A stretch of DNA of 64,000 bases, taken from assembly GCF_042477335.2 (NCBI RefSeq), contig NC_091247.1, forward strand, positions 231,955,001 to 232,019,000. The letters are read 5' to 3'. Under the pieces are notes generated by a model, which was not told the origin of the DNA, made no database searches, and saw nothing but the letters and a program-made list of their open reading frames with translations. Shown in pieces: positions 1 to 64,000 of this stretch. The translations under genes were made by a program, and so were the position numbers. Numbering within the stretch: the first letter of the stretch is position 1; the number at the start of each line of letters is the position of its first letter. The stretch comes from Ovis canadensis (Eukaryota; Chordata; Mammalia; Artiodactyla; Bovidae).

Positions 1-199
1 TGGGAGCTGGGTGGGCAGGATGTGGCTGCGGGTGTGGGGGTCCCTGAGACGCCGAGTCTTCTCACCACTTATTTGTGCAAGGGCCCCACCCTCTTTAACT
101 CCTAGTCACCCCGTGATGTCCTGGTCTACAGCGTCCATTCAACACAAAAGCGCAGCGTATTAACAGCAGCGTGGCAGGACTGCAGAGGGCGGTTCGGCC

Positions 200-1030
200 C
201 GCTGAGATCAAGAAGCACTTGGGAAGCAGCACCTATGCTGAGCCCGGAGCCCCGGGAGACTCCTTCCGCCCCGGCCCGTCGGCGATCCCCAGCCCCGGAG
301 CTTCCCGATCCGGTCCTCTGCTGGAGAGGGGCCCGGGCGCCCGCACGTCTGAGCCCTGGGCCTCGCGCCCGAGCTCGGGTGTGCCGCGCGCCCCTTCTCC
401 CGGTCCTTCGCTCCCGGTTCCTTCAGCGGCGGAGGCCCGGGGTCGGGCACGGGGAGGTGAGCGGGCGGGGACGCGCGGCTCCGTCGGTGGCCGCGTGCGG
501 GGAGTGGGTGCAGTTTCTCCCCGCGGGGCCGAGCCCGGTCGGTTGGAAGCCCTTAGCCCGGCGAAGGGGCCGCTGTGCCGCCCGCGGGATCCCCGGGTCC
601 TCCGCATCTCCCGCCCGCGGGGGATCGGAACGGTCTCCGGAGCCCGGAGACCGCCCCGCTCTCTCCTCGCCGCCTCCCGGCTTCTCGGGCGCACCAGGCT
701 CCCGGGTTCCAGCGGCGGCCAGGGGCCCGGAGCTCCTGCGGGGACGGGACCCCAGATCCCGCCCGGCCCCGGGCCGTCCGTGCGCGTCGCCTGCCCCGCG
801 GGCGCTGCTTCCCGGAGCGGCCGGCCGAGCGGCAGCCCCGGCCAGGGAGATGCGGCCGCTGGAGGCCCCGTCGGACGCGGACACGGGGCCGCCTGGGCTT
901 CTGGCTCCGCCGGCCGCCCCGGCTGCAGCCCGAGGGCCGGGGGACACCAAGCCAGGCAGCTTCGCCGTCTGCCCGCCGAGCGCAGGGGCGGCCCTAAACT
1001 ACGACTCGGGGTCAACTGCACGCGAGCCGC
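200..1030. other. CpG island in duplication copy 1
   Basis: The stretch is very GC-rich and full of CpG dinucleotides, in sharp contrast to its flanks, as at mammalian promoters. Open frames run through it on both strands, which is expected where stop codons are rare. The longest forward frame (171-1157, 328 codons) is not kept in the paralogous island at 59.7-60.5 kb, where indels shift it, so I do not call it a gene. No splice structure or recognisable protein could be assigned. Confidence 0.7.
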
Positions 1031-1097
1031 TTCTTTGATCTATGTCTCTGGTGTGAAAGAACCCAGAGTTCCCACCCTGGGCGGAAGAAAGGTTCTC

Positions 1098-1105
1098 TAT
1101 AAAGG
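1098..1105 (+). promoter_or_regulatory. TATA-like box after CpG island
   Basis: TATAAAGG lies just downstream of the CpG island and is kept in the paralogue at 60606-60613. No transcript is visible, and a chance match is quite possible. Confidence 0.2.
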
Positions 1106-1149
1106 TTTTGTAGAAGGCGTTCTTTCCCCCGCCAAAATAAGAGGGTTGG

Positions 1150-2718
1150 TGATTTGAAACGCCACCGTCACCCACGCTGTTGGCGGTGCGCCTGAAGGGC
1201 AGGTCTGAGCCTAACCCGCTGTGGGTGCGCGGAGCACAGAGCAGTGCCCGCCTCGGCTGCTTCTCAGCCCTCAGAGAATCAGACTCTCAGGGCTGGACTC
1301 CAGCTCCAGGGCTGGGGCTGGAAAGGCGGCTTCTGTCCCGCTGGGAGCCTCAGTAGGTACTGAAGGCTTGATGGGTGAGGAACTGTGCCCAGCAAGTAAC
1401 TGCTGCTCAAAACTCGATGGGCGCCAGCGCGCAGCAGGAAAGGGGTACCGAACAGGACAGCTTCCCTCCTGCTGGAGGCTGGGGACGCACAGATGAGCTT
1501 GTTGCAGCAAAAACAGAAATGCAGTGTTTCCTGTCCTGAGAACAAGGAAAGTAAACAGCGAAGACTAGACGAGAAACGTGGCAGGTCGCCAAAGAGTTAA
1601 TCACTCCTAGTTTTACTTGAGGTGTTTCTAACCTGTGTGTCTGTAACCGGGAGTCCCCGATCCTGCGTACTTTCCATCCTGCACCACGTTTTTGCTCTCC
1701 CTGCACCCTCTCATAGCAAGTCACCCCTTAGAGCCGTTTGCATTTCGGGAGGCAGGTGGCAGGCTGCCGGACCCAGGAGACCCAGGCTGTACACAGTCTC
1801 TCGGGTCCCCCAGGAGGGGACAGGGCCCTGTTCCTGGGGGGCTAGCCTGCTGTGTGCTCCCCTTGGCTGCTGAGGCGTAAAGCCGTCTAATTCCTCCCAA
1901 ATTCCGTCTCCCATATTTTTTAATTGAGCATTGGTGGGCCGAGAAAGGAGAGATGTTGGCAGTAACAAGGCGGCCACGCATGAGTGGGAGGCAGGGGTGG
2001 AGGCGGGGGGCGGAGTATCCTGGGGCGGGGGAGGACTCGAACCCCTCACACCTCAGGCAGCTTTTGGAAATTTGGATTTTGTTTTTTGAATAGGGTTTCA
2101 TAGTTACAGCACATAGCTCAATCACTCTGTTTTGGAATGGTGGTCCCTATGGGTGGGAGCGTCCACTATAAATGGATAGAATAGGCCATTGCATCTTACG
2201 TCCCATGGACCAAATTCCACTCCCAGATTGTGCTGGTAGGGCCTGAACGCTAAAAATGGTTTTTATACCTTTAAATGGTTGAAAATAGTTCTTACAGATA
2301 ATATTTGCAGCATGAAAATTCTATTCATTATACTCACATTCATCCAGATTTCATTGCCTATAAGGAGTGTCTTCTTGAAACGGGCTCTTCATGTACTTCT
2401 TATCTGTGGTGCTTCTTGGATACAACGAGTGAACTGAGTGGATCCAACAGATGTCATGTGGAAAAGCTAAAATATTCACTCTCTGGATCTTTCTAGAAGT
2501 TTGCCCACCTCCACTGTAGAAATATGGTAGGGCTTTTTGTTTGATTGTTTGTTTTAACACATATGCTGAGAACTTTTTGTTCACATTACAAATTACTGTG
2601 AATTTAGTTCACATTACATTGTGCATTTTGTTCTTTGAAGCAAACCTCCTGTGGGTAGACGTCCAGCTGGTCACATCGCTCTCAGAAATCTCACCAGCAT
2701 GAACACTGCGCCTGTGTA
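1150..2718. other. Gene-free part of duplication copy 1
   Basis: Intermediate-GC sequence grades into AT-rich sequence. I see no gene and no repeat that I can name. The sequence at 2033-2043 resembles a reverse-strand pol III B box but has no tRNA around it. Confidence 0.5.
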
Positions 2719-2931
2719 CTCAGTTGCTACTCAGCTGCTAAGTTGTGTCTCTTTGTGACCCCATGGACTGCAGCCCTGCAGGCTCTTCTGTTCCTGGGGA
2801 TTCTCCTGGCAAGAATAATACTGGAGTGTGTTGCCATGCCCTCCTCCAGGAGATCTTCCCAAGCCAGGGATCGAACCCGGGTCTCCCTCATTGCAGGTGG
2901 ATTCTTTACCATCTGAGTCACCAGGGAAACC
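2719..2931 (-). repeat. Bov-tA SINE
   Basis: Reading on the minus strand there is a tRNA-derived head ('ggtggctcag'-like, with a degenerate B box) followed by the Bov-A core ('gccatggggtcacaaag'-like). The same insertion is present at 62250-62460, so it predates the 4-kb duplication. Confidence 0.9.
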
Positions 2932-3214
2932 TCTCAGGAGAATGGTCAAGATGAATCGAGTTCTCAGAGTGATGTTTACTCTACTTTCTGTCTCAAATGT
3001 CACCCCTTAATTGAATCTCCCACCCTTTTCTGCCTTGATTTGTCAAATTTTCCATCTCTGCCTGCCCCCCTGCCCCCAAAGGGTCTCTCTGCATTCCTTC
3101 CAACCTATCCTTCCTACAGTAGAAAATGTAACTTAAAAAAACAAACAAAAAAAACACACCCAAATCCTCCTTAAAAATTTCAGTAATTTCTCACTACCAC
3201 CAGACCCACGATTC

Positions 3215-3625
3215 CAGGACCTTCCATGAATGACCCCTGTGTTTCTCCTCATGCTAATCTCCCTGCCATCCTGGGCTTCTTTGAGTGCCTGGCACCGTAC
3301 GTTTCCCCCTGAGTCAAGGCTTTATATATGCCGCTCCTCCTGCCTGGGGAGCTCTTCTCTCTACCCCTTGTTCCACCAGCTCCCACCATCTCATCTTCAT
3401 GTTCAGTACTCCTTGTTCAGGGGCGTCTTCCCTAACCCTTCCACCAGCTCCCCGAGCACCTGCATTCCCCCTCTGTCACATTCATCAGATTGCCAGTTCT
3501 TATGGAATCTCCTGCTGGACGGAAAACTCTGGGAGAGCAGGGCTGTGTCTTGCTCATGGTTCTTTCCTGGCTCCTGACACATTGATTCTCGGTCACTGTT
3601 GAATGGATGGTTGAAGGATGAGTGA
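3215..3625 (+). repeat. L2 LINE 3' relic
   Basis: The sequence follows the pattern of the mammalian L2 3' end: the 'tcctgcctggg' segment, a stretch like 'gagagcagggctgtgtcttg', then 'ctgttgaatggatgg' at the end. It is diverged and non-coding, and is shared with 62730-63140. Confidence 0.6.
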
Positions 3626-3982
3626 TGGGGGTGTGCTGGGAGGGGCCTGGCTCTGCGATGATCTGGAGATGCCACACATCTTTGGAGGATTTGGAGACTG
3701 GACAAGGTAATCGCTAACGTTCATCAGCTCAGACATCTATTAATCTTTAGGCTTACCCCCAGCCTGTTCCATTTGCTCCTAGATATTTGGTTGAACATTC
3801 ACTGTACTGAACTTGAGATTCAAGGTTAGGCTGTGGATAAAAGAGTTAAAAGTGACAGCTGCTTGATACACACATAAAATAATTTCTGAGATCTTTCTCC
3901 AGCTACAGAGCTCAGAGAATAGCCACCAAAACCACATAGTCATGCACTTGGCCACATAGTTTCCCGGGTCCTAAAGCACTGT

Positions 3983-4260
3983 TGGAGAAGGCAATGGCAC
4001 CCCACGCCAGTGCTGTTGCCTGGAAAATCCCATGGATGAAAGAGCCTGGAAGGCTGAGTCTATGTGGTCACTTAGGGTCAGACACGACTGAGCGACTTCA
4101 CTTTCACTTTTCACTTTCATGCATTGAAGAAGGAAATGGCAACCCACTCCAGTGTTCTTGCCTGGAGAATCCCAGGCACGGGGGAGCCTGGTGGGCTGCC
4201 GTCTATGGGGTCGCACAGAGTCGGACACGACTGAAGTGACTTAGTAGCAGCAGCAGCAGC
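3983..4260 (+). repeat. Bov-A2 SINE with intact target-site duplication
   Basis: This is a dimeric Bov-A2: two Bov-A units ('tggagaaggcaatggcaccc' and 'ggagaaggaaatggcaaccc') ending in a CAG-type tail. A perfect 10-bp target-site duplication, AAAGCACTGT, flanks it at 3973-3982 and 4261-4270. The paralogous copy at 63507 is cut off at its first monomer. Confidence 0.95.
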
Positions 4261-15657: not shown

Positions 15658-15871
15658 GCCGGCCCAACCCAAATTGTCCAGTGATGAAACGCTGTTAGGG
15701 TTTGTGTCACGGATGCCCTTTGCTGCTTTGATTCCTGGAATGACAGAATCCCAGGCCAGCCTGGGACCCACCCCAAAGTAGTTTGTGTCCTGTAACCCTG
15801 GTCAGACAGTTTAGTTCGGTTTTCTTGTTTGGAAACAATTTGACCTAGCTGCTCACAAGCGAAAAGCAAAC

Positions 15872-16391
15872 TGTTGCAGGAAGACGAACCCCTTCCAGGG
15901 CCCGAAACTGGGCTCTTCTCTAACACTCGAAAATGAATTGTCCGAGACACTTGTGCTGACAAAGCAAGAGATTTTATTGGGAAAGGGCACCGGGGTGGAG
16001 AGCAGTAGGGTGAGGGAACCCAGGAGAACTGCTCTCCCATGTGGCTTGCAGTCTCGGGTTTTATGCTAATGAGATTAGTTTCTGGGTGGTCTTTGGCCAA
16101 TCATTCTAATTCAGGGCCTTTCCTGGTGGCCTTTGGCCAATCATTCTAATTCAGGGCCTTTCCTGGTGGCCCACGCATCCTCAGCCAAGATGGGTGGTAG
16201 CGAGAGGGATTCTGGGAAGTGGACGGACAGGCGGTGTCTCCTTTCGACCTTTCCCGAACTCTTCCGGTTGGTGGTGGCTGATTAGTTCTGCGTTCCTCAT
16301 CAGGCCCTCCTGTCATAAAACAACTCATGCAAATGGTTACTATGGTGCCTGGCCTGGGTGGGCGGTCTCAATCAGTGGGCTTCCCCTAACA
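15872..16391 (-). mobile_element. Solo LTR of a class I-type ERV
   Basis: 520 bp starting TGTTGC and ending CTAACA, flanked by the 4-bp duplication AAAC at 15868-15871 and 16392-16395. Short duplications of 4-5 bp are typical of gammaretrovirus-like elements. AATAAA is seen as TTTATT at 15973-15978. The same LTR family occurs at 33604-34087 and, truncated, at 52019-52233. No internal genes remain. It contains a perfect 40-bp tandem duplication (16091-16130 and 16131-16170). Confidence 0.85.
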
Positions 16392-21590: not shown

Positions 21591-21597
21591 ACGTTGT

Positions 21598-31339: not shown

Positions 31340-31345
31340 GTTGGC
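31340..31345. repeat. Target-site duplication of retroviral insertion, left
   Basis: GTTGGC directly precedes the element and is repeated at 32922-32927. Six-base duplications are the usual signature of betaretroviral integrase. Confidence 0.93.
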
Positions 31346-31555
31346 TGCCGCGGCCAGCACAAACAAGAGTCGCACCTGCACAGGGAAAGAACGGAGCGTC
31401 CCCGCTAAGAAAATAAGAGAGAGACAAAAGATGGGGTTGAGAGGATCAGCCATTTTGGTCTCAACCCCATCTTTTGTCTCTCTCTTATTTTCTTAGCGGG
31501 GACGCTCCGTTCTTTCCCTGTGCAGGTGCGACTCTTGTTTGTGCTGGCCGCGGCA
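31346..31555. repeat. Perfect 97-bp inverted repeat of LTR U5
   Basis: Arms 31346-31442 and 31459-31555 are exact reverse complements, separated by a 16-bp spacer (31443-31458). Each arm ends at the U5 terminus CCGCGGCA or its complement. The left terminus is the integrated end, while the right arm leads into the primer binding site. It could extrude as a cruciform or hairpin. Confidence 0.97.
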
Positions 31556-31557
31556 GG

Positions 31558-31573
31558 TGGCGCCCAACGTGGG
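31558..31573 (+). other. Retroviral primer binding site (lysine tRNA type)
   Basis: TGGCGCCCAACGTGGG lies two bases after the U5 terminus. It matches the 3' end complement of the lysine tRNA used by JSRV-type betaretroviruses. The match breaks off at 31574, where the inverted env segment is joined. Confidence 0.88.
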
Positions 31574-31576
31574 TCT

Positions 31577-32393
31577 GTAAATATAGACTATTGCCATGAC
31601 CAAAAGCAGCCAAAAGTTTCCACAGTTCTGTCTGATATATAGGAGCAGTGTTTACAGAAAGAATGGGTGGACGCTGTCCTCGATATTCGGGGAAATCAGG
31701 TGTTCCCCCAGGTGCCCAGTCCCATAAAAAGGTGGCATTGGCATTGTTGATGTTGTACACTGATGCGACCCGTGCTCGACATAAAGTCCAAGGAGTGTCT
31801 ATTCCTATGCCGATGCTTAAATGTTTGTCACAAAACGGAATGTCGAGAGGTCCGGTTCCGTCACGGTACCATCTCTTTCCGGTTTTTTCATCAATGCCTG
31901 AAATAGTCACTCGAGGGTAGGATATATCAGCTGACACCTGTATACAGTGAGGATGCTGTGATTGATAAGAAAAGCACATAGGATATTGCGTAGTAAGACC
32001 ATAAAAGGAGATATTGGCTTGCTGAGGAGAAATGTGAATATCTGATTTTCCTCCTAAAAGACTTGTATCATTGACATATACAGGTACTATTTCTTTATCC
32101 CATCCTAAGGATTGAATCATGGGCGGATCAGGAATGTATGCCCAAAAAACCGCAGCCGCCCCGTTTTGTATCCGCTGTAACAATAATAATAACATGATCA
32201 GTATATTAGTAGGTGTCACTGGAGGTTGTACATGAGCCTCATTCCAAGCATATCGCATCAACGCCTCAATCTGCCTCTGGGTAGGCAGCTCACTCGTGGG
32301 CTCGCTCAGTGTCATGCGATGCATCTGATATGTCAGGGAGTTCCTCCGCTGCGCGTACCAGCCTTTCCGGTATCCAACGCGGCGCTTCGGCAT
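31577..32393 (-). pseudogene. env: Betaretroviral env, N-terminal fragment (JSRV-like)
   Basis: This encodes the start of the retroviral envelope surface subunit, which binds the host receptor in an intact virus. The ATG is at 32393 on the minus strand, just after an AG that fits a subgenomic env splice acceptor (32395-32396). The frame stays open for about 272 codons and shows a hydrophobic leader segment ('NILIMLLLLLQRI') after a long basic N-terminus, as in JSRV-type Env. It then runs out of env into antisense primer-binding-site and U5 sequence. The rest of the surface subunit, the furin site and the whole transmembrane subunit are missing, so it cannot make a functional envelope. Its start overlaps the end of pol by about 100 bp in another frame, which is normal for this group. 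Recognition rests on strong recall of the family and was not tested by search. Confidence 0.9.
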
Positions 32394-32786
32394 CCTGTGG
32401 AAAAACACAAACATGCCCTCGTCCCCATATTAATACAGGGTCTAGCCCATACCACAGATTGGTAAGTGGATCCTTCCATCGTACAAGTGGTTTTTTGCAT
32501 GAGGATCGTTCTCCCCAAAAACGCTGGGCTGCTGAATTGCCTTCTGTGTCTAAAGTTAAAAAATTTAAAACATAGAGGGCATGATTTAAGGCGTTATGCG
32601 GTGAGGGGCTATACAGTTCATTCCCCTTTTTTTGTTTTAATAATTGATGTTTAAGGCGTTGATGGGCTCATTCCACAATGCCTTGTCCTTGTGGATTATA
32701 TGGAATTCCTGTTTTATGATGAATTTGGAAAGAAAGACAAAAACGTTGAAAAGAACGGCTAGTATAACCAGGTCCATTATCTGTTT
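32290..32786 (-). pseudogene. pol: Betaretroviral pol, integrase C-terminal part
   Basis: Integrase joins viral DNA ends to the host chromosome. The fragment starts at the second catalytic aspartate region of the core ('TDNGPGY', from 32784) and passes the conserved '[13 protein letters not shown]' segment with the third catalytic acidic residue. It then meets an in-frame TGA at 32670-32668, immediately after that glutamate codon. Beyond the stop the same frame continues through the C-terminal domain to a TGA at 32292-32290, inside the env start. The N-terminal zinc domain, the first catalytic aspartate and all upstream pol domains are absent. Truncation, internal stop and lack of a promoter make it non-functional. 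The frame is otherwise uninterrupted, which fits a recent insertion. Confidence 0.9.
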
Positions 32787-32861
32787 TAAGAAAATAAGAG
32801 AGAGACAAAAGATGGGGTTGAGAGGATCAGCCCCATCTTTTGTCTCTCTCTTATTTTCTTA
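32787..32861. repeat. Second U5 inverted repeat (31-bp arms)
   Basis: 32787-32817 is the exact reverse complement of 32831-32861, with the 13-bp spacer 32818-32830 (TTGAGAGGATCAG). The antisense arm abuts integrase sequence directly, and the sense arm continues to the right U5 terminus at 32921. Confidence 0.95.
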
Positions 32862-32921
32862 GCGGGGACGCTCCGTTCTTTCCCTGTGCAGGTGCGACTC
32901 TTGTTTGTGCTGGCCGCGGCA

Positions 32922-32927
32922 GTTGGC
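32922..32927. repeat. Target-site duplication of retroviral insertion, right
   Basis: GTTGGC, identical to 31340-31345, directly after the terminal CA at 32920-32921. Confidence 0.93.
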
Positions 32928-33603: not shown

Positions 33604-34087
33604 CGTTAGGGGAAGCATGCTGACAGAAACCGCCCAGCCTGGCCAGGCACCACGGTAACCATTTGCATGAGCTGTTTTATGACAGGAGGTCCTGGTAAGG
33701 AACACGGAACTAATAAGCCACCACCAACCGGAAGAGGTTGGGAAAGCTCAAAAGGAGACACCACATGTCTGACCACCTCCCAGAATCCTCCTCTCTGGCA
33801 TCCATCTTGGCTGAACCAAGTGTGCACCACCAGGAAGGACTCTGAGTCAGAATGATTGGCTAAAGACAACCCGGAAACCAATCCCATCACCATAAAACCC
33901 GAGACTGCGAGCCGTGTGGCAGAGCTGTTCTCTTGGGTTCCCTTACCCTCCTGCTCTCCATGCTGGTGCCCTTTCCCAATAAACTCTCTTGCTTTGTCAG
34001 CACATGTGTCTCCTCGGACAATTCACTTCCGAGTGTTGGACAGGAGCCCAGTTTCGGGCCCTGGAAGGGGTCCCCCTTCCTGCAACA
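33604..34087 (+). mobile_element. Solo LTR of class I-type ERV
   Basis: Same family as 15872-16391 but in the opposite orientation. It starts (C/T)GTTAGGGG and ends CTGCAACA, with AATAAA at 33978-33983. Possible 4-bp flanks GGAC (33600-33603) and GTAC (34088-34091) differ at one base. There are no internal genes. Confidence 0.83.
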
Positions 34088-34091
34088 GTAC

Positions 34092-45394: not shown

Positions 45395-48300
45395 CCTGAA
45401 CCCCATGAACAGTATGAAAAGGCAAAATGATAGGATACTGAAAGAGGAACTCCCCAGGTCAGTAGGTGCCCAACACATTAGTGGATACCAGTGGAGAAAT
45501 AACTCCAGAAAGAATGAAGGGATGGAGCCAAAGCAAAAACAATGCCCAGCTGTGGATGTGACTGGTGATAGAAGCAAGGTCTGATGCTGTAAAGAGCAAT
45601 ATTGCACAGGAACCTGGAATGTCAGGTCCATGAATCAAGGCAAATTGGAAGTGGTCAAACAGGAGATGGCAAGGGTGAACGTTGACATTCTAGGAATCAG
45701 CAAACTAAGATGGACTGGAATGGGTGAATTTAACTCAGATGACCATTATATCTACTACTACGGGCAGGAATCCCTCAGAAGAAATGGAGTAGCCATCATG
45801 GTCAACAAAAGAGTCCGAAATGCAGTACTTGGATGCAATCTCAAAAACGACACAATTATCTCTGTTCATTTCCAAGGCAAACCATTCAATATCACCGTAA
45901 TCCAAGTCTATGCCCCAACCAGTGACGCTGAAGAAGCTGAAGTTGAATGGTTTTATGGAGACCTACAGGCCCTTTTAGAACTAACACCCAAGAAAGATGT
46001 CCTTTTCATTATAGGGGACTGGAATGCAAAAGTAGGAAGTCAAGAAACACCTGGAGTAGCAGGCAAATTTGGCCTTGGAATGTGGACTGAAGCAGGGCAA
46101 AGACTAATAGAGTTTTGCCAAGAGAATGCACTGGTCATAGCAACCACCCTCTTTCAACAACGCAAAAGAAGACTCTCCACATGGACATCACCAGATGGTC
46201 AACACCAAAATCAGATTGATTATATTCTTTGCAGCCAGAGATGGAGAAGCTATATACAGTCAACAAAAACAAGACCAGGAGCTGACTGTGGCTCGGATCA
46301 GGAACTCCTTATTACCAAATTCAGACTGAAATTGAAGAAAGTAGGGAAAACCGATAGGCCATTCAGGTATGACCTAAATCAAAACCCTTATGATTATACA
46401 GTGGAAGTGAGAAATAGATTTAAGGGCCTAGATCTGATAGATAGAGTGCCTGATGAACTATGGAATGAGGTTCGTGACATTGTACAGGAGACAGGGATCA
46501 AGACCATCCCCATGGAAAAGAAATGCAAAAAAGCAAAATGGCTGTCTGAGGAGGCCTTACAAGTAGCTGTGAAAAGAAGAGAGGTGAAAAGCAAAGGAGA
46601 AAAGGAAACATATTCCCATTTGAATGCAGGATTCCAAAGAATAGCAAGAAGAGATAAGAAAGCCTTTTATAGTGATCAATGCAAAAAAATAGAGAAAAAG
46701 AACAGAATGGGCAAGACTAGAGATCTCTTCAAGAAAATTAGAGATACCAAGGGAACATTTCATGCAAAGATGGGCTCGATAAAGGACAAAAACGGTCTGG
46801 ACCTAACAGAAGCAGAAGATATTAAGAAGAGGTGGCAAGAATACATGGAAGAACTGTATAAAAAAAATCTTCATCACTCGGATAATCTCGATGGTGCGAT
46901 CACTCATCTAGAGCCAGACATCCTGGAATGTGAAGTCAAGTGGGCCTTAGAAAGCATCACTATGAACAAAGCTAGTGGAGGTGATGGCATTCCAGTTCAG
47001 CTATTTCAAATCCTGAAAGATGATGCTGTGAAAGTGCTGCACTCAATATGCCAGCAAATTTGGAAAACTCAGCAGTGGCCACAGGACTGGAAAAGTTCAG
47101 TTTTCATTCCAGTCCCAAAGAAAGGCAATGCCAAAGAATGCTCAATACCGCACAATTCCACTCATCTCACACGGTAGTAATGGTCAGAATTCTCCAAGCC
47201 AGGCTTCAGCAACGCGTGAACCGTGAACTTCCTGATGTTCAAGCTGGTTTTAGAAAAGGCAGAGGAGCCAGAGATCAAATTGCCAACATCCACTGGATCA
47301 TGGAAAAAGCAAGAGAGTTCCAGAAAAACATCTATTTCTGCTTTATTGACTATGCCAAAGCCTTTGACTGTGTGGATCACAATAAACTGTGGAAAATTTT
47401 GAAAGAGATGGGAATACCAGACCACCTAACCTGCCTCTTGAGAAATCTGTATGCAGGTCAGGAAGCAATAGTTAGAACTGGACATGGAACAACAGACTGG
47501 TTTCAAATAGGAAAGGAGTATGTCAAGGGTGTATATTGTCACCCTGCTTATTTAACTTATATTCAGAGTACATCTTGAGAAACACTGGACTGGAAGAAAC
47601 ACAAGCTGGAATCAAGATTACCGGGAGAAATATCAATAACCTCAGATATGCAGATGACACCACCCTTATGGCAGAAAGTGAAGAGGAACTAAAAAGCCTT
47701 TTGATGAAAGTGAAAGTGGAGAGTGAAAAAGTTGGCTTAAAGCTCAACATTCAGAATACTAAGATCATGGCATCCACTCCCATCACTTCATGGGAAATAG
47801 ATGGGGAAACAGTGGAAACAGTGTCAGACTTTATTTTTTTGGGCTCCAAAATCACTGCAGATGGTGACTGCAGCCATGAAATTAAAAGACGCTTATTCCT
47901 TGGAAGAAAAGTTATGACCAACCTAGATAGCATATTCAAAAGCAGAGACATTAATTTGCCGACTAAGGTCCGTCTAGTCAAGGCTATGCTTTTTCCAGTG
48001 GTCATGTATGGATGTGAGAGTTGGACTGTGAAGAAGGCTGAGTGCAGAAGAATTGATGCTTTTGAACTGTGGTGTTGGAGAAGACTCCTGAGAGTGCCTT
48101 GGACTGCAAGGAGATCCAACCAGTTCATTCTAAAGGAGATCAGTCCTGCGTGTTCATTGGAAGGACTGATGTTGAAACTGAAATTCCAATATTTTGGGCA
48201 CCTGATGCGAAGAGCTGACTCATTGGAAAAGACTCTGATGCTGGGAGAGATTGAGAGCAGGAGGAGAAGGGGACGACAGAGGATGAGATGGTTGGATGGC

Positions 48301-48426
48301 ATCACCAACTGGATGGACATGAGTTTGAGTTAGCTCCGGAGTTGGTGATGGACAGGGAGGCCTGGCGTGCTGCAGTCCACGAAGTCACAGAGAGTTGGAG
48401 ACGACTGAACGACTGAACTGAACTGA
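45395..48426 (+). mobile_element. BovB LINE (RTE clade), nearly full length
   Basis: BovB is the ruminant RTE-clade non-LTR retrotransposon that also supplies the machinery for Bov-tA SINEs. The copy starts at 'cctgaaccccatgaacagta', covers endonuclease and reverse transcriptase, and ends in the tail 'gactgaacgactgaactgaa', which is shared with SINE ends in this window. At about 3.0 kb it is close to full length and only modestly 5' truncated. It interrupts duplicated unit B. I could not define a target-site duplication. Confidence 0.95.
45585..48333 (+). pseudogene. BovB endonuclease-reverse transcriptase ORF, frameshifted
   Basis: The protein would nick target DNA with an APE-type endonuclease and copy the element's RNA. 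The first frame is open from the codon after a TGA at 45582 to 47177 (first ATG 45630). It shows 'GTWNVRS' (45609), 'GDWNAKVG' (about 46014), 'NQIDYILC' and 'CGSDQELL'. In APE endonucleases the last motif normally has SDH, so the catalytic histidine appears as glutamine here. RT begins in this frame ('SSVFIPVPKKGN'), is shifted near 47146 into a second frame ('FCFIDYAKAFDCVDHNKLW') and again near 47530 into a third ('NLRYADDTTLMAES', the YADD catalytic box at about 47647). The third frame ends at 48333. The two frameshifts and the altered endonuclease residue make this copy inactive. Confidence 0.93.
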
Positions 48427-59512: not shown

Positions 59513-59714
59513 TGGGAGCTGGGTGGGCAGGATGCGGCTGCGCGTGTGGGGGTCCCTGAGACACCGAGTCTTCTCACCACCGATTTGTGCAAGGGCCCCA
59601 CTCTTTAACTCCTAGTCACCCCGTGATGTCCTGGTCTACAGCGTCCATTCAACACAAAAGCGCAGCGTATTAGCAGCGTGGCAGGACTGCAGAGGGCGGT
59701 TCGGCCCGCTGAGA

Positions 59715-60545
59715 TCAAGAAGCATTTGAGAAGCAGCAGCGCTGCTGAGCCCGGAGTCCCGGGAGACTCCTTCCGCCCCGGCCCGTCGGCGATCCCCAGC
59801 CCCGGAGCTTCCCGATCCGGTCCTCTGCTGGAGAGGGGCCCGGGCGCCCGCACGTCTGAGCCCTGGGTCTCGCGACTGAGCTCGGGTGTGCCGCGCGCCC
59901 CTTCTCCCGGTCTTCCGGTCCCGGTTCCCGCAGCGGCCGGAGGCCCGGGGTCGGGCCCGGGGAGGCGAGCGGGCGGGGACGCGCGGCCCCGTCGGTGGCC
60001 GCGTACGGGGAGCGGGTGCAGTTTCTCCCCGCGGGGCCGAGCCCGGTCGTCGGAAGCCCTGAGCCTGGCGAAGGATCCGCTGTGCCGCCCGCGGGATCCC
60101 CGGGGCCTCCGCATCTCCCGCCCGCGGGGGATCGGAAAGGTCTCTGGGGCACGGAGACCGCCCCGCTCTCTCCTCGCCGCCTCCCGGCTTCTTGGGGCTC
60201 ACCAGGCTCCCGGGTTCCACCAGCGGCCAGGGGCCCGGAGCTCCTGCGGGGACGGGACCCCAGATTCCACCCGGCCCTGGGCCCTCCGTGCGCGTCGCCT
60301 GCCCCGCGGGCGCGGCTTCCCGGAGCGGCCGGCCGAGCGGCAGCCCCAGCCAGGGAGATGCGGCCGCTGGAGGCGCCGTCGGACGTGGACACGGGGCCGC
60401 CTGGGCTTCTGGCTCCGCCGCCCGCCCCGGCTGCAGCCCGAGGGCCGGTGGACACCAAGCGAGGCGGCTTCGCCGTCCACCCGCGGAGCGCAGGGGCGGC
60501 CCTAAACTACGACTCGGGGTCAACTGCACGCGCGTCGCTTCTTTG
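59715..60545. other. CpG island in duplication copy 2
   Basis: Paralogue of the island at 200-1030. Several substitutions change amino acids in any frame read across it, and indels break the long forward frame of copy 1 (here it stops at 60505). The region is therefore not behaving like a conserved coding exon. Confidence 0.7.
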
Positions 60546-60605
60546 ATCCACGTCTCCGGTGTGAAAGAACCCAGAGTTCCCACCCTGGGCGGAAGAAAGG
60601 TTCTC

Positions 60606-60613
60606 TATAAAGG
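60606..60613 (+). promoter_or_regulatory. TATA-like box, paralogue of 1098-1105
   Basis: TATAAAGG is conserved between the two copies. The same caution as for copy 1 applies. Confidence 0.2.
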
Positions 60614-62249
60614 TTTTGTAGACGGCGTTCTTTCTCCGGCCAAAATAAGAGGGTTGGTGATTTGAAACGCCACCGTCACCCACGCTGTTGGCGGTGCGCC
60701 TGAAGGGCAGGTCTGAGCCTAACCCGCTGTGGGTGCGTGGAGCACAGAGCAGTGCCCGCCTCGGCTGCTCCTCAGCCGTCAGAGAGTCACTCTCAGGGCT
60801 GGACTCCAGCTCCAGGGCTGGGGCTGGAAAGGCGGCTTCTGTCCCGCTGGGAGCCTCAGTAGATACTGACGGCTTGATGGGTGAGGAACTGTGCCCAGCA
60901 AGTAACTGCTGCTCAAAACACGATGGGCGCCAGCGCGCAGCAGGAAAAGGGTACCGAACAGGACAGCTTCCCTCCTGCTGGAGGCTGGGATGCACAGATG
61001 AGCTTGTTGCAGCAAAAAGAGAAATGCAGTGTTTCCTGTCCTGAGAACAAGGAAAGTAAACAGGGAAGACTAGACGAGAAACGTGGCCGGTCGCCAAAGA
61101 GTTAAATCACTCCTAGTTTTACTTGAGGTGTTTCTAACCTGTGTGTCTGTAACCGGGAGTCCCCGATCCTGCGTACTTTCCATCCTGCACCACGTTTCTG
61201 CTCTCCCTGCACCCTCTTGTAGCAAGTCACCCCTTAGAGCTGTTTGCATTTCGGGAGGAAGGTGGCAGGCTGGCGGACCCAGGAGACCCAGGCTGTACAC
61301 AGTCTCTCGGGTCCCCCAGGAGGGGACAGGGCCCTGTTCCTGGGGGGCTAGCCTGCTGTGTGCTCCCCTTGGCCAGCTGAGGAGTAAAGCCGTCTAATTC
61401 CTCCAAAATTCTGTTTCCCGTATTTTTTAATTGAGCATTGGTGGGCAGAGAAAGGAGAGATTTTGGCAGTAACAAGGCGGCCACGCATGAGTGGGAGGCA
61501 GGGGTGGAGGCGGGGGGCGGAGTATCCTGGGGCGGGGGAGGACTCGAACCCCTCACACCTCAGGCAGCTTTTGGTAATTTGGGTTTTGTTTTCTGAGTAT
61601 AGGTTTCATAGTTACAGCGCATAGCTCTATCACTCAGTTTTGGAATGGTGGTCCCTATGGGTGGGAGCGTCCACTATAAATGGATAGAATAGGCCATTGC
61701 ATCTTACATCCCATGGACCAAATTCCACTCCCAGATTGTGCTGGTAGGGCCTGAAAGCTGAAAATGACTTTTATACCTTTAAATGGTTGAAAATAATTCT
61801 TAAAGATAGTATTTGCAGCATGAAAATTCTATTCATTATACTCATATTCATCCAGATTTCATTGTCTATAAGGAGTGTTTTCTTGAAACAGGCTCTTCAT
61901 GTACTTCTTATCTGTGGTGCTTCTTGGATACAATGACTGAGCTGAGTGGATCCAACAGATGTCATGTGGCAAAGCTAAAATATTTACTCTCTGGATCTTT
62001 ATAGAGGTTTGCCCACCTCCACTGTAGAAATATGGTAGGGGTTTTGTTTATTTGTTTGTTTTTAACACATATGCTGAGAACTATACATTAGAAACATTGT
62101 GAATTTTGCTCACATTACAAATTACTGTGAATTTAGTTCACATTACATTGTGCATTCTGTTCTTTGGAACAAACCTCCTGTGGGTAGATGTCCAGCTGGT
62201 CACATCACTCTCAGAAATCTCACCAGCATGAACACTGCGCCTGTGTACT
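60614..62249. other. Gene-free part of duplication copy 2
   Basis: Paralogue of 1106-2718. Nothing beyond the shared sequence. Confidence 0.5.
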
Positions 62250-62460
62250 CAGTTGCTACTCAGTTGCTAAGTTGTGTCTCTTTGTGACCCCATGGACTGT
62301 AGCCCTGCAGGCTCTTCTGTTCCTGGGGATTCTCCTGGCAAGAATAATACTGGAGTGGGTTGACAGGCCCTCCTCCAGGAGCTCTTCCCAACCCAGGGAT
62401 CGAACCTGGGTCTCCCTCATTGCAGGTGGATTCTTTACCATCTGAGCCACCAGGAAAACC
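62250..62460 (-). repeat. Bov-tA SINE
   Basis: Paralogue of 2719-2931 with the same insertion site. Confidence 0.9.
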
Positions 62461-62729
62461 TCTCAGGAGAATGGTCAAGCTGAATCGAGTTCTCAGAGTG
62501 ATGTTTACTCTACTTTCTGTCTCAAATGTCACCCCTTAATTGATTCTCCCACCCTTTTCTGCCTTGATTTGTCAAATTTTCCATCTCTTCCTGCCCCCTG
62601 CCCCCAGAGGGTCTCTCTGCATTCCTTCCAACCTATCCTTCCTGCAGCAGAAAATGCAACTAAGAAAATAAAAACCCAAATCCTCCTTAAAAATTTCAGT
62701 AGTTTCTCACTACCACCAGACCCACGATC

Positions 62730-63140
62730 CAGGACCTTCCATGAATGACCCCTGTGTTTTTCCTCAGGCTAATCTCCCTGCCATCCTGGGCTTCTTTGAG
62801 TGCCTGGCACCGTACGTTTCCCCCCGAGTCAAGGCTTTATATATGCCGCTCCTCCTGCCTGGGGAGCTCTTCTCCCTACCCCTTGTTCCACCAGCTCCCC
62901 ACCATTTCATCTCCATGTTCAGTACTCCTTGTTCAGGGGCGTCTTCCCTAACCCTTCCACCAGCTCCCAAGCACCTGCATTCCCCCTCTGTCACATTCAT
63001 CAGATTGCCAGTTCTTATGGAATCTCCTGCTGGACGGAAAACTCTGGGAGAGCAGGGCTGTGCCTTGCTCGTGGTTCTTTCCTGGCTCCTGACACATTGA
63101 TTCTCTGTCACTGTTGAATAGATGGTTGAAGGATGAGTGA
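62730..63140 (+). repeat. L2 LINE 3' relic
   Basis: Paralogue of 3215-3625. Confidence 0.6.
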
Positions 63141-63506
63141 CGGGGGTGTGCTGGGAGAGGCCTGGCTCTGCGATCATCTGGCAATGCCACACATCTTCGG
63201 AGGATTTGGAGACTGGACGAGGTAATCGCTAACATTCATCAGCTCAGACATCTATTAATCTTTAGGCTTACTCCCAGCCTGTTCCATTTGCTCCAAGATA
63301 TTTGGTTGAGCATTCGTTGTACTGAACTTGAGATTCAAGATTAGGCTGTGGCTAAAAGAGTTAAAAGTGACAGCTGCTTGGTACACACATAAAATTATCT
63401 GCATAGTTTCTGAGATCTTTCTCCAGCTACAGAGCTCAGAGAATAGCCACCAAAACCACATAGTCATGCACTTGGCCACATAGTTTCCTGGGTACTAAAG
63501 CACTGT

Positions 63507-63610
63507 TGGAGAAGGCAATGGCACCCCACTCCAGCACTCTTGCCTGGAAAATACAGTGGATGGAGGAGCCTGGTGGGCTGCAATCCATGGGGTCGCTGAG
63601 GGTCGGACAC
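63507..63610 (+). repeat. Bov-A2 SINE cut at a duplication junction
   Basis: First monomer only, in the same site as 3983. It stops at 'gggtcggacac', where the sequence switches to the 24.88-kb block. Confidence 0.93.
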
Positions 63611-64000
63611 GGTCCTTGTTCCCGATCCCTCACACCTATAAAAGTCTTTTATTATGTGCAACTCCTCAGTTTCTAACTGCTGAATTGGATGCTGCCTGAT
63701 TCACAAATCTGTAAATAGAGGCACTAAGATTTTAAACTTTTACTCAGTTGAATTTTATTTTATTTTAATAGGGCTTACAGCTTATTTTGGAGAAAGCACC
63801 CAACTCCAGTACTCTTGCCTGGAAAATCCCATGGACAGAGGAGCCTGGAGGGTGTGGTCCATGGGGTCGATCAGAGTCACACATGACTGAGTAACTTCAC
63901 TTTCACTTTTCACTTTCCTGCATTGGAGAAGGAAATGGCAACCCACTCCAATGTTCTTGCCTGGAGAATCCCAGGGATGGGGGAGCCTGGTGGGCTGACG
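63611..64000. repeat. Duplicated segment, partner of 24878-25266
   Basis: Nearly identical to 24878-25266 from 'ggtccttgtt' onward, up to the window end. It is foreign to the preceding 4-kb block. Confidence 0.95.
63789..64000 (+). repeat. Bov-A2 SINE, truncated by window end
   Basis: Same insertion as 25055-25317. The left flank CAGCTTATTTT corresponds to the target-site sequence there. Confidence 0.93.

Follow-up and report, generated by a model that had tools for sequence, protein, structure and literature searches.

How could a retroviral insertion come to face its host with U5 at both ends and with no U3? The locus that raises this question lies within a window of 64,000 nucleotides from Ovis canadensis (contig NC_091247.1; coordinates below count from the first base of this window), in which an element of 1576 bp (31346-32921) is bracketed by two copies of GTTGGC (left, 31340-31345; right, 32922-32927). 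It opens with TGCCGCGGCC at its left edge and closes with GGCCGCGGCA at its right, and these two ends are reverse complements of one another. Identity between the two flanks stops at exactly 6 bp; the probability of any one specified match of 6 bp is 4^-6 (0.00024). The element has TG...CA ends, the trimming of two bases and a 6-bp target duplication, as an integrase-type insertion should. Integration by the betaretrovirus MMTV likewise produces a 6-bp duplication, and 3' processing usually takes two bases off each viral end (PMC3790719, in the sections drawn on here). By comparison, aberrant HIV-1 insertions, one end of which is joined by enzymes of the host, are usually described as having no short duplication and rearranged host DNA (PMC5041404, in the portion used here). 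A LINE-type insertion was rejected on three counts: the retroviral TG...CA ends, the 6-bp duplication, and the absence of a poly-A tail at both junctions. We take the insertion to be germline from its presence in the assembly.

The original prediction described a GTTGGC-flanked element with two outward-facing U5 ends, and the flanks, a published primer and a further, internal copy of U5 confirm that description. To compare the element with JSRV, we aligned it to 11 of the 20 primers in a published table (PMC12400676, the table being the part used) and to one JSRV integrase oligonucleotide (PMC3790719, likewise used in part), each set against 200 shuffles. The left end matched the JSRV U5-end primer at 17 of 18 bases, the first 17 bases of the left terminal U5 being those of the primer, while none of the 200 shuffles came within fewer than four mismatches. 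Five primers in all did better than every one of their shuffles: the U5-end primer (1 mismatch versus a shuffle minimum of 4), the JSRV integrase-end primer (1 versus 5, or 19 of 20 bases), AFRT4 (2 versus 3), the 5'-genome primer (3 versus 6) and the R/U5 primer (6 versus 7). Within the element, the left terminal U5 was identical to the internal copy at 97 of 97 bases, and the right terminal U5 was identical to either of the other two at 89 of 89. In the internal copy, U5 is followed by GG and a putative primer-binding site (31556-31573), which independently fixes both the limit of U5 and the two bases that integrase would have trimmed; the outer copies stop at CA, immediately before the position of that GG. 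Given the primer match, the reverse complementarity of the termini and this internal marker of where U5 stops, both outer ends are processed U5 ends. An exact 22-base U5 pattern had no matches in a collection of viral contigs.

The absence of U3, also part of the original prediction, holds up by two routes. Five primers that we assigned to U3 in this analysis (U3-III, U3-VI, NMJSRV-R, 3'RACE-F and U3d-F) matched the element no better than shuffles; 3'RACE-R, taken to span U3/R, and env-F did not do better than every one of their shuffles either. In addition, all 1576 bases could be assigned to parts other than U3, and this accounting is the stronger argument, since endogenous U3 differs from exogenous U3 and primers are correspondingly less telling. 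For scale, the LTR of one JSRV strain is given as U3 267, R 13 and U5 112 bp (PMC12400676, in part). A canonical provirus has a U3-R-U5 LTR at each end, with U3 outermost at the 5' side, and gag-pro-pol-env between them; here there is no such LTR at either end, and the coding content is limited to a 3' part of integrase and a 5' part of env.

What the original prediction captured were the ends and the duplication; the internal palindromes, the primer-binding site and the pieces of env and integrase went unreported. The left end of the element is a palindrome, here called H, with fully complementary arms of 98 bases and a centre of 16 bases. It begins with U5 in minus sense (31346-31449, outermost bases TGCCGCGGCC, last bases GGATCAG), turns at R, and is completed by R and U5 in plus sense (31450-31555). 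Its centre holds a 17-base word of the 28-base JSRV 5'-genome primer, from primer base 8 onwards, and this word starts at ATCAG (31445-31449), five matching bases where minus-sense U5 gives way to plus-sense R. On the strength of the primer word we place the strand switch at ATCAG; of 2084 maximal alignments between arm and primer, no more than 2 share five bases. Seven bases in the left centre might be taken for non-templated sequence, but the published JSRV primer identifies them as R/U5, and that reading was rejected.

The bases at the turn are predicted to pair in one of two published JSRV primer variants. The published 28-base JSRV R/U5 primer is predicted to fold as a DNA hairpin that pairs the turn bases (-4.7 kcal/mol), and its complement forms the same hairpin at the same energy; the z-scores are -3.2 and -3.7 for primer and complement respectively, with 2 of 200 shuffles folding as well in each case. 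For a second published primer, which carries a variant base, the predicted fold of the 27-base complement is weak (-1.8 kcal/mol; z -0.48) and is equalled by 56 of 200 shuffles. The palindrome has the form expected of a self-primed product, consisting of U5 and R, turning in R and reaching the primer-binding site. The loop, however, does not contain a complete R end: the palindrome centre lacks bases 1 to 7 of the 5'-genome primer, which suggests that the priming end was trimmed or mispaired.

Beyond the plus-sense U5 lie GG (31556-31557, plus strand), the two bases that integrase would trim from a free end according to sequence and to the part of PMC3790719 used here, and 16 bases of a putative primer-binding site (31558-31573, plus strand), placed by their position directly after U5 and GG. 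A primer-binding site immediately after U5 is what would be expected if a self-primed strand had copied its attached tRNA. These 16 bases are a candidate for the tRNA-Lys1,2 type; primer-binding sites are usually 18 bases long.

The right end of the element carries a second copy of H with its start cut off, comprising a partial U5 in minus sense that runs to GGATCA(G) as in the left copy (32787-32829) and then the plus-sense, right terminal U5 (32830-32921). From TAAG onwards, its 135 bases (32787-32921) are the 150 bases at 31406-31555 minus a single stretch of 15, the position of the gap sliding over two bases in a CC repeat. These 15 bases may have been lost during copying, or the palindrome, being unstable, may have been trimmed later. 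On the simplest view of their sequences, both palindromes were copied from a single product, H, although gene conversion may instead have made them alike at a later time.

Between the palindromes lie 1213 bases of minus-sense env and integrase (31574-32786). The env piece (31574-32393, minus strand) is a 5' part that belongs to SU; its reading frame starts at an ATG (32393) and meets no stop before the join with the primer-binding site. Seven of 430 candidates passed a threshold of E 0.001 in a protein search: six were 93-97% identical over 75-92% of the query, one being a hypothetical protein of Capra hircus and the other five unnamed, and the seventh, from Cervus canadensis, was 48% identical. 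The piece gave no Pfam family, no matches in the viral contig collection and two weak matches in the PDB, both named Surface protein (best E 3.3e-5). The pol piece is a 3' part that runs from TDNG in the integrase core to the pol stop (32290-32784, minus strand), recognised by Pfam (rve, 3e-8; IN_DBD_C, 3.6e-22), by the JSRV integrase-end primer and by the PDB, where 7usf (1.5e-31) and then 3jca, both named Integrase, were the best among 11 sequences; we take both to be from MMTV. It carries one in-frame stop (32668-32670, minus strand), while the env piece is open throughout. Judged from these sequences, the source is a JSRV/enJSRV-type betaretrovirus, a name that rests on the published JSRV primers.

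The join of primer-binding site and env (31573/31574) has little or no microhomology. In two of the three env relatives that were fetched, a serine codon continues at the point where the element turns into the primer-binding site, and the third departs from the frame earlier. Neither this join nor that at 32786/32787 has a CA-terminated viral end, and autointegration was rejected for this reason.

Taken together, these features lead us to regard the element as probably an integrated, defective reverse-transcription product of a JSRV/enJSRV-type betaretrovirus, formed by self-priming of strong-stop DNA, carried by a single cDNA and inserted through two U5 ends. Minus-strand strong-stop DNA normally moves to the 3' R. 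Here, the strong-stop DNA (U5 then R, in minus sense) would have failed to make this transfer; pairing of its R end with U5 at CTGAT/ATCAG, in a fold-back, would have supplied the primer for a copy of itself. Copying back through U5 and into the attached tRNA primer would then yield U5-GG-PBS and with it the palindrome H. The growing strand may next have switched to env RNA, copied env and integrase in minus sense, and shifted at TAA onto a copy of H, so finishing at U5 once more. A tRNA on the copy of the primer-binding site beyond that end could have primed the second strand; if so, both ends of the cDNA would be U5, and the polypurine tract and U3 would be dispensable. Finally, integrase would have removed the last two bases at either U5 end and inserted both ends into host DNA, giving the 6-bp duplication. 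The sequence itself establishes how the element is built, that its U5 ends are identical, that the target is duplicated and that the palindromes are related as copies. We infer that strong-stop DNA primed itself, that tRNA primed both strands, that one cDNA was involved, and the order in which the steps took place.

Both unusual steps have precedents in other retroviruses. Minus-strand strong-stop DNA of HIV-1 folds back and primes itself, a reaction limited by nucleocapsid (PMC4668388, in the passages drawn on). MMTV integrase carries out concerted integration in vitro of paired mimics of the U5 end, while the JSRV enzyme could not be purified in the same study (PMC3790719, in part). The statement in the original prediction that integrase normally joins one U3 and one U5 end applies in cells, but is too strict for the test tube. 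As to the locus itself, joining of two U5 ends by integrase is the simplest reading of CA-ended U5 termini beside a 6-bp duplication and implies a concerted reaction, and to that extent the interpretation first offered for this element is partly supported.

Several observations argue for self-priming: U5 and R share five bases at the turn, a hairpin is predicted there for the 28-base primer, and the primer-binding site follows directly on U5. Also in favour of the proposal as a whole are the right palindrome, which is the left less one 15-base stretch, and the assignment of all 1576 bases without U3. Against the proposal stand the weak fold of the variant primer, the seven missing primer bases and the shortness of the primer-binding-site copy at 16 bases. 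The scant microhomology between primer-binding site and env fits end joining as well as it fits template switching, and the evidence that integrase can use two U5 ends comes from MMTV in the test tube.

The original prediction had named two possible sources, a rearranged palindromic cDNA and two cDNAs joined later. A palindromic cDNA fits better, given a palindrome at each end of the element with the right one equal to the left less 15 bp. The second source nonetheless stays a candidate on account of the join at 31573/31574, which has little or no microhomology and falls where a self-primed product would end; each virion, moreover, packages two genomes. In this case two molecules would have supplied the U5 ends, one a self-primed strong-stop product and the other a further defective cDNA; integrase would have paired these ends, and the host would later have sealed primer-binding site to env by end joining. 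We consider this unlikely: the right palindrome copies the left apart from 15 bases and would need a shared template anyway, and the inward-facing ends would have had to join after integration without other damage.

A further rival to our preferred reading is that the palindrome arose from two annealed strong-stop molecules, by intermolecular priming, and not from one molecule folded back. Annealing within or between strong-stop cDNAs has been proposed for abortive products of HIV-1 (PMC4668388, in part), and intermolecular priming would yield an identical sequence, so that the final product hardly separates the two routes. Fold-back of a single molecule is favoured by the hairpin predicted for one published R/U5 primer, though not by the variant primer, and on balance we judge intermolecular priming improbable.

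An artefact of assembly or library preparation, whether from palindromic reads or from a collapsed provirus, has to be weighed as well. Perfect inverted repeats are typical of hairpin-read artefacts, and the region is not simple, with a 4.1-kb duplication of 94% identity at the ends of the window. Collapse, however, would not create a 6-bp duplication beside processed U5 ends, an asymmetric palindrome centre or a correctly placed primer-binding site, and an artefactual origin therefore appears very improbable. The least credible account is an ordinary provirus altered after integration by deletion, inversion or gene conversion: most enJSRV loci are indeed defective through premature stops, large deletions and/or recombination (PMC4276937, in part), but, as the original prediction argued from the duplication, such changes are hard to reconcile with exact U5 termini beside an intact 6-bp duplication, with no U3 remaining, and with joins at 31573/31574 and 32786/32787 that have no viral CA end of the kind expected from autointegration.

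Compared with known systems, the element shares with enJSRV and JSRV proviruses its env and integrase sequence, its U5 end, the start of its R/U5 and a 6-bp duplication of the MMTV kind. It differs from them in having no U3, no full LTR, U5 at both ends, a total length of only 1.6 kb and a minus-sense coding piece between two palindromes. The provirus enJSRV-20 also carries a piece of env outside the usual place, directly before its 5' LTR, but it does have that LTR, and a U5-U5 structure is not described in the portion of PMC4276937 used here. Self-primed strong-stop DNA of HIV-1 likewise folds back at R and copies itself (PMC4668388, in part); the product seen here, in contrast, seems to have reached the tRNA, joined internal sequence and become a chromosomal insertion. 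The two-U5 integration by MMTV integrase resembles our case in its ends and in the use of a betaretroviral enzyme, but involved oligonucleotides in a tube and not an animal chromosome (PMC3790719, in part). Retroelements of the DIRS-1 type, with their inverted LTRs, resemble the element in having inverted terminal repeats; they are not known to use a retroviral integrase, whereas here the ends are of integrase type and the target is duplicated.

Each of the two steps, self-priming and two-U5 integration, is known from other systems, and as far as could be seen their combination in a chromosome is new. Among the matches listed, which covered open-access titles and the starts of abstracts, with subscription journals mostly outside, neither an inherited U5-U5 provirus nor an integrated strong-stop palindrome was reported, and we do not claim priority. 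The locus was put forward as a record of both reverse-transcription error and integrase end choice; it is mainly the former, and the choice of ends is less surprising in the light of the MMTV experiments. Given that MMTV integrase already accepts pairs of U5 ends in vitro, it is more surprising to find strong-stop self-priming apparently recorded in a chromosome; in HIV-1, the products of this reaction count as abortive (PMC4668388, in part). The locus suggests that strong-stop DNA whose copying has reached the tRNA bears a proper U5 att end and is able to enter a chromosome, and it indicates that a betaretroviral integrase accepted two U5 ends in an animal. Two questions thereby become directly testable: the frequency with which fold-back of strong-stop DNA leads to a chromosomal insertion, and the need of integrase for a U3 end in vivo.

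More tentatively, and with our judgement leaning somewhat against it, we suggest that a retroviral cDNA might be completed without U3, a polypurine tract or the normal first strand transfer: a self-primed strong-stop palindrome with its own primer-binding site would serve as a portable terminal repeat, both strands would be primed by tRNA, and the U5-U5 product would be inserted. If true, ruminant genomes may hold a class of U5-U5 elements missed by standard LTR searches. In practice, a search for paired direct LTRs would probably overlook an element of this kind.

No difference was found in the 3 x 89 bases compared among the U5 copies, and three assumed neutral rates place an upper bound of approximately 2.5-7.5 My on the age of the element; possible gene conversion between the arms weakens this bound, since it would let an older element pass for a young one.

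The surrounding window contains several other repeats. A direct duplication of about 4.1 kb (1-4086 and 59513-63611, 94% identical, 59.5 kb apart) is perhaps part of a larger tandem or segmental duplication, the next unit of which might carry an empty insertion site. An inverted repeat pair (33605-34089 and 15870-16390, 82-86% identical, with 'AATAAACTCTCTTGCTTT' near one end), one member of which lies 0.7 kb to the right of the element, looks like the LTRs of another endogenous retrovirus. At 45585-48333, a 530-aa ORF with an endonuclease domain is followed by a reverse-transcriptase ORF, and we take the two to be a BovB/RTE-like LINE. Across the window, Rfam gives a single match at the gathering threshold, to tRNA (2856-2927, minus strand, 32.7 bits), which may be a tRNA-derived SINE, and a 143-bp tandem repeat at 21597 resembles a ruminant SINE.
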